The notes under the pieces were generated by a model that was not told where the DNA came from, did no database searches, and saw only the letters and a list, made by a program, of their open reading frames with translations. Below are positions 3,361 through 42,388 of a stretch of DNA of 43,878 nt, in pieces. Source of the stretch: Bacillota bacterium (lineage in GTDB: Bacteria > Bacillota > SHA-98 > UBA4971); contig JASEJE010000025.1 in assembly GCA_030024085.1 (NCBI GenBank), positions 1 to 43,878 on the forward strand, in the 5' to 3' direction. A program made the position numbers and the translations under genes. How positions within the stretch are numbered: position 1 is the stretch's first letter; each line of letters opens with the position of its first letter.

Positions 3361-3684
3361 TCAAGGATTCCTGTCTTTCTGTTTCTTCGAGAGCTGTTTT
3401 GAGCGCTTTTTGAGCTTTTTCAAGTTCTTCTCCAGCGCCTTCGGGGCTTCTATCTTTTCTCCGGTCGAGAGAACGGCGAAGTGAACGAGCCCCCTATCCA
3501 AACCGACCGGTTCACCGCTTACCGGAACGGGGTCGGGTATCTCCTCCACCACCGCCAGGCTCACGTACCACCGGTCAGCTTCCCTGTTCACGGTGGCGGA
3601 GAGTATCCTGCCGTTTACTTTGGTCTCTTCCTTTTGAGTCACCGGCAACCCCTCACAAAAGTCGGGAGCGTTTTTCCCCCTCAC
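3361..3684 (-). pseudogene. tnpB: Truncated IS200/IS605-family TnpB relic
   Basis: The 107-codon frame contains a TnpB middle segment: GRILSATVNREADRWYVSLA, then EIPDPVPVSGEPVGLDRGL, which holds the first RuvC aspartate, then STGEKIEAPKALEKNLKKLK and the basic helix. A complete TnpB is about 370-400 residues; here the N-terminal domain, the RuvC II glutamate, the zinc finger and the last aspartate are missing, so the nuclease must be dead. The first 15 or so codons come from a palindromic repeat rather than from tnpB, and the frame overlaps the upstream B12-protein stop by 4 bases (GTGA). No matching tnpA is visible. Confidence 0.82.
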
Positions 3685-3689
3685 TTAGA
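3636..3689 (-). repeat. Palindromic repeat, copy 2 (one arm fused to the tnpB relic)
   Basis: On the minus strand it reads TAAGTGAGGG, then CGCTCCCGACTTTTGTGAGG, then the core GGGTTGCCGGTG, closely matching the left arm of the 16706-16905 copy. It starts at the 3' end of the B12-binding gene and supplies that gene's TGA stop. Immediately after the core comes the tnpB relic, in place of the usual palindromic centre. Confidence 0.82.
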
Positions 3690-6883: not shown

Positions 6884-6904
6884 CCAACCCACCTCCTCTT
6901 CCCA

Positions 6905-7114
6905 CGCTTACGAGGTTAGCTGACGGGCTCGGATCGAAAGAGTGTGACCCGTCCCGGGTGGAGCGCTGTGGTGCCGTCGCGTATCAGCCGGAGAGACGTT
7001 GCAAGAATCGTCCACGTCCCGCCGACGCACGGCCCGCAGGCACCGACCGCCGGGATTAGCCCCAAAAAGTTGGGTCCCCCGCTTCCCATAAGAGGGAACT
7101 CAGCGTTCAAGCGG
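6905..7114 (-). ncRNA. Cyclic di-AMP riboswitch (ydaO/yuaA type)
   Basis: The minus strand shows the hallmark blocks of the ydaO leader in order: CCGCTTGAACGCTGA at the 5' side (from 7114), then AAGCGGGGGACCCAA with a TTGGGGCTAATCCC partner, a variable GC-rich stem, and the 3' block CCGTCAGCTAACCTCGTAAG followed by CG. The closing stem pairs CGCTT near 7112 with AAGCG at 6905-6909. These riboswitches sense c-di-AMP and usually turn off genes for cell-wall hydrolases, potassium uptake or osmolyte handling. Here the next clear genes on the strand are the opine-dehydrogenase/B12 pair about 410 bases on, an unusual target. Confidence 0.9.
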
Positions 7115-7201
7115 ATCGGCTGGTCCTCATCGGCCGTTTTGGTTTTGGTTCAATTGCATTGTATCATTCCGGAGGCGCCGCGTCAAATCCTGCGAGCAAC
7201 C

Positions 7202-16568: not shown

Positions 16569-17240
16569 GCGCTGCCTCCTTTGAGCACAACCCCAGGGAG
16601 CGCTGACGCATCTCCAGAGGTAGCTGGCACTGGACTACGGGCTCGCAACTGCGAGGGGTCCCACGCTCTCAATGGGTCTTGTTCCAGGCGCACGCATCAG
16701 GCACCCCGAGTGAGGGTGCAGAAATGCTCCCGACTTTTGGGAGGGGGTTGCCGGTGATTGCACGAGGGGTGTCAAAATCCGGCCACTGTCCCGATGGGCC
16801 GGATTTTGGCGAAGCGCGCCCCGCTTGGGGCGCCGTCCCCGAGTGCAACACCGGCAACCCGGCAACTACTGGAAAAGGGACGGGGACTAATGCACCCTCA
16901 CTCGGCGGGCGCAACCCCGCATTCCCTCACCCTGGGGCGGGTTCGGCGATGCGGTCACGGTACGGTCGCGGCGGAGCGCCTCGACGACATCCGGCGCGCA
17001 GCCAAACCGACCATACTCCGGTCTATGCGTGTTGCGCCCGGGTGATGTCGGGTTCCTCCAGACTCTTTGTTCGACTCTCCTGCCTTTATTCCTTTAAGGG
17101 GACATCAGGTCGGTTTCCCGCTCTCTGGAGTGGCAACAGGCAACACCGGGCTGCACATAGAATAACATGTTGTGAGAAATCGTCGGCCCTCGCACCGGGT
17201 GATCCCGGTTCAGGGCATATGACGCCGGGAGGGAATTGCC
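16569..17240. other. 672-base gap between divergent genes, containing a full palindromic repeat
   Basis: The gap separates the AMMECR1 operon from the LysM gene. It holds the 200-bp repeat copy at 16706-16905, a longer-range inverted pair GGGCGCAAC (16907-16915) and GTTGCGCCC (17031-17039), and, ahead of the LysM gene, CATAGAATA (17156-17164), which fits the -10 pattern of sporulation sigma-K promoters. The short plus-strand frames here derive from the repeat and do not look like genes. Confidence 0.6.
16706..16905. repeat. Palindromic repeat, copy 3 (complete, 200 bp, 15-bp terminal inverted repeats)
   Basis: The ends are perfect inverted repeats: CCGAGTGAGGGTGCA (16706-16720) and TGCACCCTCACTCGG (16891-16905). 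Inside lie the family cores GGGTTGCCGGTG (from 16746) and CACCGGCAACCC (ending 16860). At the centre is a hairpin with an 11-bp perfect stem, AAAATCCGGCC (16774-16784) and GGCCGGATTTT (16797-16807), then GCGCCCCGCTTGGGGCGCC. Size, terminal inverted repeats and lack of coding content fit a miniature, non-autonomous mobile element. No target duplication was identified. Confidence 0.88.
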
Positions 17241-30884: not shown

Positions 30885-32798
30885 TCACCGACGCGCCTCG
30901 TCGACACGCCTTACCACAAGGCGCAACACACGGCGGGTGGACGGAGTCACCCTGGCGAGGCTGCTCCGCCTGACCCCGACGACCCACACGATTTCACTCC
31001 CAGCTACTATAACGGGCACTCGATCCCGCATGTTCCTGGGGACCTTCTCGTCGATGAAAAGCTCCTTGAGCTTCTTGCGGCCGTCCATGCCGAACGGGGA
31101 GAGCCTGTCCCCCGCCCGCCTGTTCCGCACGACAAGGTCCGTTCCCAGCGCATCCAGGTCGAAGTAGGCCTCATCTGCGCCCGCGCGAGCGATGGCGGCG
31201 CTGGTGGCGTCGCCCTCCTCACCGCCGATCTCGAGCACCTCCGCTTCTACGATGACCCCAAGGTCCGGGACAGGCGTAACACCGGGCACGGCCAGCCTGC
31301 ATTCGATCGGCGCAGGCGGGCTTTCACCCTGCGCGGCCCGGCGGGCATCCGGCTCGCCACCGGGCCCACGTCCGAACTGGAGCCCAGGCCCGATTTCAAG
31401 AACAGACTCCGGGGCGGGCTCCCGGCCATGCCCAGGCGTCGAGCCGCCAGGTTCGTGCGCCGTGCTCGCGAACGCTGGACCAGCAGGCCTGGCCGACCAT
31501 CGGACCTTTCTCGCCCGGATCCCCCGGGGCAGGCTTGCGCTTGCCTCCAGGCGTCCGTTCCGCGCAAGCTCGAGCACCATCTCCACGTGCTCGAACTCGA
31601 TGTCCTCGGCGCCTCGCCCGACAATCCTGACGGCCTCGCGCACCACCCGACGCTGAATGGCGGAAGGTTCAGCCAGAAGGCGTTCGACGCTGAGGACGAC
31701 GCGCCCCGGGGACATTCCGCGCACGATCCCGTGCATCCTCCGCCGAACTTCATCAGAGATGAACCTGTCGTCATCCCTGACGAGCTCCGCGGTCCTCGCG
31801 ATGCTCTCAACTACACGCGCATTATAGTGGCGCTCGAGCATGGGGATGAGCTCGCGCCTCACCCTGTTTCTCGCATACACGGAAGTGAGGTTGGACGCGT
31901 CCACCCTGGGACGCAGGTCGTTGTCCCTGCAATAGTCCTCGATCTCCTGGCGGGTCACCTCGATGAGCGGGCGGATCACGACCGGGCAGCCGCGGCCATC
32001 GCAGTCATCCGCGGCGCCAGCCCCGCCTGGGCCGTCCGGAGACCCCGCACAGTCCGTAGTACCATCTGCACCATGGGCGCCGCCCGTGCGATCCACGCCG
32101 CGATCCGGGTCATCTTCGCTCCGTGAGCGAGGGCTCGCCACTTCCTCCACGTTTCCTGGCGGCTGCCGGGTTGCCGGTGTTGCACTCGGGGACGGCGCCC
32201 CAAGCTGGGGGCCTTGACAGAATGGAGTCGGGAACATTTCTGAATCCCCATCATCTAGCGGACGCACGGGAGGGATCCCTGCAAGCCCCGTGGTGCCCGT
32301 GCCCCGCACCAGCCTCAGCAAGACGGTCTCCGCCTGGTCACCAGCATGGTGGCCGAGCGCCACCTTGGCGGCGCCCGCAGCTCCCGCCACTCGACGGTAG
32401 AACGCGTAGCGGATCTCCCTGGCTGCAAGCTCCACCGACATCCGCTTCTCACGGGCGAGCGCCGCGACGTCGCTGCTCTCGATACTCACAGGCAGGCCGA
32501 GGCGCCGCGCGAGATCCTGCACGTACGCGGCGTCCTCATCGGCCGCCGCGCCGCGCAACATGTGGTTTAGATGTCCGACATGAAGAGAGATCTGAAGTTC
32601 CTGCGAGAGGGACCAAAGGACATGGAGAAGCGCGACCGAGTCCGGCCCGCCTGACACGCCGACCAGCACCCGGTCGCCCGGCTTCGTCATCTCGTGCCGC
32701 TTCATGGTGGACTTCACCTTCGCGATGAAGCCTGTTCCGCCGCCCACTGCGATACCAGCGGCCCCCGGTACGTCTTGCCCCTCGCCGCCCCGGCGCAC
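30885..32798 (-). CDS. tilS: tRNA(Ile)-lysidine synthetase carrying an in-frame palindromic-repeat insertion
   Basis: It converts the AUA-reading tRNA-Ile anticodon cytidine to lysidine, an essential step. The N-terminal PP-loop ATPase motif SGGPDS is near residue 50, followed by GHLNHMLRG, ALGHHAGDQAETVLLRLVRG and GTTGLAGIPPVRP. VIRPLIEVTRQEIEDYC near residue 273 resumes the family pattern, and C-terminal substrate-binding domains follow. The 637 residues exceed the usual 450-480. About 90 residues between IPPVRP and VIRPL are extra: residues 183-226 are encoded by a mobile repeat (32121-32251), then Gly/Asp-rich sequence. Another expansion lies near residues 440-500. The start is uncertain: GTG at 32798 has no close ribosome site, and later GTG/ATG codons before residue 32 are possible. 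Confidence 0.92.
   Translation of the reverse strand: MRRGGEGQDVPGAAGIAVGGGTGFIAKVKSTMKRHEMTKPGDRVLVGVSGGPDSVALLHVLWSLSQELQISLHVGHLNHMLRGAAADEDAAYVQDLARRLGLPVSIESSDVAALAREKRMSVELAAREIRYAFYRRVAGAAGAAKVALGHHAGDQAETVLLRLVRGTGTTGLAGIPPVRPLDDGDSEMFPTPFCQGPQLGAPSPSATPATRQPPGNVEEVASPRSRSEDDPDRGVDRTGGAHGADGTTDCAGSPDGPGGAGAADDCDGRGCPVVIRPLIEVTRQEIEDYCRDNDLRPRVDASNLTSVYARNRVRRELIPMLERHYNARVVESIARTAELVRDDDRFISDEVRRRMHGIVRGMSPGRVVLSVERLLAEPSAIQRRVVREAVRIVGRGAEDIEFEHVEMVLELARNGRLEASASLPRGIRARKVRWSARPAGPAFASTAHEPGGSTPGHGREPAPESVLEIGPGLQFGRGPGGEPDARRAAQGESPPAPIECRLAVPGVTPVPDLGVIVEAEVLEIGGEEGDATSAAIARAGADEAYFDLDALGTDLVVRNRRAGDRLSPFGMDGRKKLKELFIDEKVPRNMRDRVPVIVAGSEIVWVVGVRRSSLARVTPSTRRVLRLVVRRVDEARR
32121..32251 (-). 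repeat. Palindromic repeat, copy 6, inserted in frame within tilS
   Basis: On the minus strand it runs from GATGGGGATTCAGAAATG and TCCCGAC through CTTGGGGCGCCGTCCCCGAG and TGCAACACCGGCAACCCGGC to CCCTCGCTCACGG. The middle is identical to the right half of the 16706-16905 copy (about 40 bases), and both outer ends match that copy with some changes. The central AAAATCCGGCC hairpin is missing, leaving about 131 bp. It is translated as PTPFCQGPQLGAPSPSATPA followed by TRQPPGNVEE. Confidence 0.88.
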
Positions 32799-42130: not shown

Positions 42131-42388
42131 AGATCGCCACAGGTTCGCGCTGCTTCTCGCGCGCAGGTCCAGTCCAGGGTCGCCGGTGATTGCACGAGCT
42201 ATGTCAGAATCCGGCCACTCGCCCGACGGGCCGGATTATGGCGAAGCGCGCCCCGCCTGGGGCGCCGTCCCCGAGTGCGACACCGGCAACCCCTCCCGAA
42301 AGTTGCGAGCACTTCTGCGCCCTCACTTGGCTAGCACCGGCAACCCCGACACCGTCAGAAGAAGTGGCGCAGATTTATGGAGCCATAC
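42131..42388. repeat. Palindromic repeat, copy 7 (composite, three arms)
   Basis: From left: an arm GATCGCCACAGGTTCGCGCT ending CCAGGGTCGCC; a centre almost identical to copy 3 (ATCCGGCC and GGCCGGAT stem, GCGAAGCGCGCCCCGCCTGG, GCGCCGTCCCCGAGTG); the core CACCGGCAACCC (near 42280); an arm like copy 3's (GAGCACTTCTGCGCCCTCAC); a second core CACCGGCAACCC (near 42335); and an arm CTGCGCCAC/TATGGAGCC shared with copy 5. It fills the whole gap between the pycB-like stop codon and the adenine deaminase start, as if one element had been added to another. Confidence 0.85.

Follow-up and report, generated by a model that had tools for sequence, protein, structure and literature searches.

A short-form MITE copy in frame within tilS of an uncultured Bacillota bacterium

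A segment within the tilS gene of an uncultured Bacillota bacterium, on a 43,878 bp stretch of DNA (the window), is very probably a transposed copy of the short form of a lineage-specific MITE that entered a CTAG site, with duplication of TA, left the reading frame open and is carried as a passenger. The features of the gene and of the repeat copy are as follows.

30885–32798, minus strand: tilS coding region (tRNA-Ile lysidine synthetase), a GTG-started open reading frame of 637 aa (PF01171, PF09179, PF11734)
32123–32258, minus strand: short-form MITE copy, complete, lying in the tilS reading frame and adding 44 codons
32246–32258, minus strand: left end of this copy, CTAGATGATGGGG
32123–32131, minus strand: right end of this copy, CTCGCTCAC
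32164–32212, minus strand: block common to other copies, containing CTTGGGGCGCCGTCCCCGAGTGCAACACCGGCAACCC and coding for LGAPSPSATPAT
31995–32122, minus strand: remainder of the TilS loop extension (including SEDDPDRGVDRTGGAHG), not repeat-derived; the linker length varies in congeners

A repeat copy in tilS

When the segment from 32121 to 32251 was used to search its own genome (3.1 Mb in 65 contigs), 61 matches were found, and the best non-self matches had E values of 9.8e-27, 1.5e-21 and 3.3e-20. Values this low exclude a chance likeness and bear out the original prediction of a mobile repeat in frame in tilS. That prediction had placed the repeat at 32121–32251, with about 43 residues encoded and a middle identical to the copy at 16706 over about 40 bases. 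The repeat, the in-frame addition and the match all stand, with limits of 32123–32258 once the ends are compared, 44 codons, and 96% identity over 49 bp (32164–32212 against 16816–16864). The same block is 91% identical to a further copy at 42248–42292, and the tilS copy shares 82% DNA identity over 116 bp with a copy in an LpxB-like gene. It measures 136 bp, counted from the CTAG cytosine to its last base, with a gain of 132 bp, and the insert region of TilS includes the peptide stretch SEMFPTPFCQGPQLGAPSPSATPATR.

The repeat segment was absent from TilS in all five congeners examined, which are 60–83% identical by segment, and from the TilS of those more distant relatives that were aligned. 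Two of the congener sequences (L061 and L062) are from public Bacillota MAGs (JACIXY010000005 and JAAYXB010000078). The element enters at CTA-GAT, directly after GIPPVRP; at this point the relatives G003 and G004 code for Leu-Glu. The ends of the tilS copy (CTAG..CAC) are eroded, so its TA duplication is not directly readable, and the tilS of the nearest relative is too diverged for a base-by-base view of the empty site. A short-form MITE would have transposed into this CTAG (codons CTA-GAN just past GIPPVRP), with duplication of TA, and the added length, a multiple of three, would have given tilS about 44 codons with the frame left open.

The repeat family

The repeat is a MITE, a non-autonomous DNA transposon that carries no transposase gene. 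Its full form is 199 bp and its short form about 133 bp, with ends CTAAGTG...CACTTAG. The canonical 199 bp order is the terminal inverted repeat CTAAGTGAGGGTGC, left arm, inner stem GGGTTGCCGGTG, two hairpins, CACCGGCAACCC, right arm and the opposite terminal inverted repeat GCACCCTCACTTAG. Three further copies or fragments lie in the window.

16706–16904, plus strand: full-length copy of the tilS-type MITE, in no recognised gene
42177–42330, plus strand: another MITE copy, core and one outer arm, in no recognised gene
3635–3685, minus strand: fragment of one MITE outer arm

A 20-base core was found at 54 sites in the genome with up to three mismatches, compared with none for the reversed control. 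There are at least 50 MITE copies in this genome and at least 150 in each of G003 and G004. The repeat is abundant across the genus, with at least 150 frame matches in each of G003 and G004, about 30–40 in G001 and G002 and fewer than 10 in G005. In a sister genus the inner core is about 88% conserved, with different outer arms and the same CTAAG/CTTAG ends. Copies reach 98% identity between species, which argues for recent movement.

RNAalifold returned a nested palindrome with two hairpins. Among 28 cores drawn from three groups of repeats, 9 of the 28 base pairs were changed on both sides with pairing kept, and the fold appears from these alignments to be conserved despite differing hairpin sequences. 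The short form has lost the left inner arm and the first hairpin, and is found in tilS, in the LpxB-like gene, between LivG and LivF, at four further sites in this genome and once in G002. The palindromic character first proposed for the insert holds for the family, and is weaker in the tilS copy than in full-length repeats because this copy is a short form. Rfam covariance models gave no match to a full-length copy (L013) at E values up to 1. Elsewhere in the window, a c-di-AMP riboswitch (RF00379, 80 bits, E=3e-17) is found at 6891–7115 on the minus strand.

At least four outer-arm subfamilies, CTAAGTGAGGG, CTAAGTGTGGG, CTAAGTATGGC and CTAAGTATGAG, surround related cores, making modular mosaic elements. 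In three copies in this genome (L027, L028 and L097) the inner core runs in the opposite orientation to the outer arms, and in five (L026, L027, L030, L147 and L013) one element lies in the loop of another in a Russian-doll arrangement, at the same CTAG. One candidate copy (L157) was set aside as it looked like a chance core match.

Insertion site and mobilising enzyme

No flanking duplications above those of shuffled pairings were found outside the CTAAG/CTTAG ends. The target could be read from two nested copies, L027 and L147, each inserted at CTAG within the loop of a second copy of the repeat. The sequence in at least twelve empty host copies is CGCC-CTAG-CAAGCACC, and in the two filled ones it is CGCC-CTA[AGTG...CACT]TAG-CAAGCACC. 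This comparison shows that the target is CTAG and that TA is duplicated. Examination of the termini with the flanking base in 54 copies gave CTA..TAG in 29, TTA..TAG in four and CTA..TAC in three, and the constant TA with a varying outer base is as expected for target duplication. A CTAG target with TA duplication is the insertion signature of the IS630/Tc1-mariner group; the bacterial IS630 element ISY100 inserts at TA and duplicates it (PMC2170065). The family is probably moved in trans by an IS630/Tc1-mariner-like DDE transposase that recognises the CTAAGTG ends.

A profile search of the genome with PF13358 gave zero matches, and an intact IS630/Tc1 transposase (PF13358) was absent from all 13 genomes of the family; some other members of the class do have PF13358 matches. 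Loci with PF01609 and other transposase loci were retrieved, and none was bounded by MITE-type ends. TAAGTGTGGGTTCAGAAATC, present in many copies with several at contig ends, was considered as a parent IS and proved instead to be another non-coding subfamily of about 195 bp.

It is possible, though rather unlikely, that a different enzyme is responsible, such as an IS427-like IS5 transposase or a recombinase of unrecognised type acting on a folded single strand. The lack of an IS630 transposase in the 13 genomes favours this, and the compensatory stem and hairpin changes in a conserved core, together with the exchange of outer arms or inversion of cores in some copies (L027 and L028), suggest that the folded core matters. 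However, IS630/Tc1-mariner is the best match for symmetric ends and a TA duplicated at CTAG, a MITE may lose its autonomous parent, and the assemblies are incomplete. This raises the question of how hundreds of copies move when no transposase can be recognised.

Other genic copies and the reading frame

Two more short-form copies were found in frame in conserved genes, one in the gene for an LpxB-like glycosyltransferase and one in the LivG-LivF linker, which would have gained their copies in the same way as tilS. All three genic copies share a common strand and frame (..GAPSPSAT..). The added lengths are 132 bp in tilS and 129 bp in each of the others, all multiples of three, and the tilS copy differs from the LpxB copy by a 3-base indel. 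The LpxB-like insert is absent in five congeners, where a short linker runs straight into a PEPAYVIETDEG-like motif, and we infer an empty site of TTAG. The possibility that the MITE made the LivG-LivF fusion was ruled out, as the fusion in one ORF is found in all congeners.

LivM, LivG and LivF appear to be fused genus-wide in one ORF of about 950–1060 aa (L234–L238; G000, G001 and G003–G005). One LivF sequence in G002 (L240, contig C128, 16394–16882) has 100% amino acid identity to that of the window genome, where other G002 proteins share 64–86%, and represents either a misbinned contig or a recent transfer.

The long ORFs over five other copies (L008, L148, L013, L081 and L172) were rejected as genic cases, since they had no Pfam support or the domain began downstream of the copy. 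Full-length copies near genes lie upstream and not inside, for example before a DUF4446 gene in this genome and at an ftsA-like start in G003. In G003 and G004, many full-length copies (L246–L258) lie directly 5' of gene starts, including those of ftsA-like and 6-phosphogluconate dehydrogenase-like genes, and such copies could influence expression.

The original prediction held that the element may be tolerated through a stop-free frame shared by its copies. This was not borne out, as only 6 of 21 full-length copies have the genic frame free of stops, compared with 21% per frame in a composition-matched simulation. Frame 0 of the other strand is open in 11 of the 21, and the intergenic short copies have stops or frame-breaking lengths. 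Neither the 21 full-length copies nor the intergenic short copies give any sign of the peptide frame being preserved outside genes. Survivorship, through selection acting once copies have inserted, is a likelier reason for tolerance of the genic frame than a frame specially kept open.

A more speculative reading, which we consider unlikely, takes the short form as a subtype of the MITE that has adapted to, or been sieved for, life within genes, a protein-coding selfish element outside the Rickettsiales moved by an unrecognised enzyme. This is based on loss of the inner arm and hairpin, which removes a strong palindrome, on a length that is a multiple of three and on the recurrence of one frame. 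Less probable still is that the in-frame copies were selected, either for a useful peptide or through maintenance of the frame for insertion into genes as protein-coding selfish DNA. The single strand and frame of the three copies would fit, as would the over-representation of short forms in genes (3 of 7 compared with none of about 40 others; Fisher p about 0.002, a post hoc test with approximate denominators). Against selection, the intergenic copies do not keep the frame open, and the genic copies occupy linkers that are variable, and in the TilS model disordered, with no cross-species conservation.

Effect on TilS

The PP-loop, TilS and TilS_C Pfam domains are all present in the 637-aa TilS, in agreement with the expectation that the protein is intact around the insert; the true start may be slightly inside the GTG-started ORF. 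An AlphaFold2 model built with 15 TilS sequences had a mean pLDDT of 73. Most of the PP-loop core was at 82–97, and residues 185–268, between strands 178–180 and 273–275, were below 50. The insert had been placed in a loop between conserved blocks, which accords with this prediction of disorder between two beta strands, and it probably forms a disordered loop with the enzyme intact around it.

Only part of the extra loop comes from the MITE (32123–32258). The remainder, 31995–32122, had no second place in its own genome (best other E=0.05) and is a TilS linker, native and variable in length. TilS in this genus has further low-complexity linkers that are disordered in the model, namely this non-repeat stretch and residues 437–493.

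TilS is required for AUA decoding and this is the only tilS found in the genome, so its function is presumably kept. The added peptide would lie where a beta-hairpin of the PP-loop domain turns, in a disordered surface loop, so activity is probably retained and the insert would be a neutral or mildly deleterious passenger.

An assembly or binning artefact is very improbable. The genome is a draft in 65 contigs and repeats break contigs, but here an intact ORF runs through the copy, the sequence on either side is conserved and the frame is kept. The copy is also unlike every other one found, where a collapse would yield a consensus copy. That the segment is an ordinary variable TilS linker, like the repeat only through convergent GC-rich low complexity, can be dismissed for 32123–32258 even though linker length varies among congeners at this point and non-repeat low-complexity sequence makes up half of the extra loop, as both element ends are present and the likeness extends to 82% over 116 bp with the LpxB copy and 96% over 49 bp with the intergenic copy, at E values down to 1e-26.

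Comparison with known elements

The best-known cases of selfish DNA lying in frame in conserved genes come from Rickettsia and Wolbachia, and enterobacteria supply scattered examples. The transposed short-form MITE in tilS represents a real but precedented route by which extra segments can be added to proteins. With a target rule that can be read, insert-free relatives and three genic cases, it offers a natural test of the gain of disordered segments from mobile DNA.

The REP, BIME and REPIN sequences are also extragenic palindromes at high copy number, and REPs are RAYT-associated. REPs are 20–40 bp long (PMC3733652), compared with 133–199 bp, terminal inverted repeats and TA duplication here.

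RUP of Streptococcus pneumoniae, which is mobilised by IS630, is of similar size (about 100–200 bp), with terminal inverted repeats, TA termini, insertion in other mobile sequences, high copy number and presumed mobilisation in trans (PMC2229807). RUP is intergenic, has no open frame and has a known partner, IS630-Spn1 (PMC2229807), whereas the present family has some in-frame genic copies and no partner was found for it. The enterobacterial MITEs ERIC and YPAL, likened here by description and found in other hosts, are palindromic, have TA termini (ERIC) and occasionally form in-frame gene fusions (PMC2229807).

Rickettsia palindromic elements (RPEs; Ogata et al. 2000, 2002) are palindromic, 105–150 bp long and found both between and within genes, with in-frame insertions in genes for conserved proteins (PMC2229807, PMC10969869). 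For gmk, the RPE insert was shown to be translated and the host protein to be functional (PMC2229807). A 2024 review regards in-frame MITE fusions as not unusual and RPEs as extreme in frequency (PMC10969869). The parallel with RPEs drawn at the outset proved apt, as the present repeat is palindromic, both intergenic and genic, and in frame in conserved genes, with the LpxB-like and LivG-LivF copies joining that in tilS in a single frame. The two differ, when compared by description, in size and architecture and in host, here a GC-rich uncultured Bacillota and not Rickettsia. Three genic copies were seen here compared with 19 or more for RPEs, and the CTAG target with TA duplication is clear here, a point that a 2007 review lists as unresolved for RPEs (PMC2229807). 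In behaviour RPEs are the closest elements, and as MITEs the closest are ERIC, YPAL and RUP. The element represents a new family of MITEs from uncultured Bacillota, RPE-like in behaviour and yet not an RPE.
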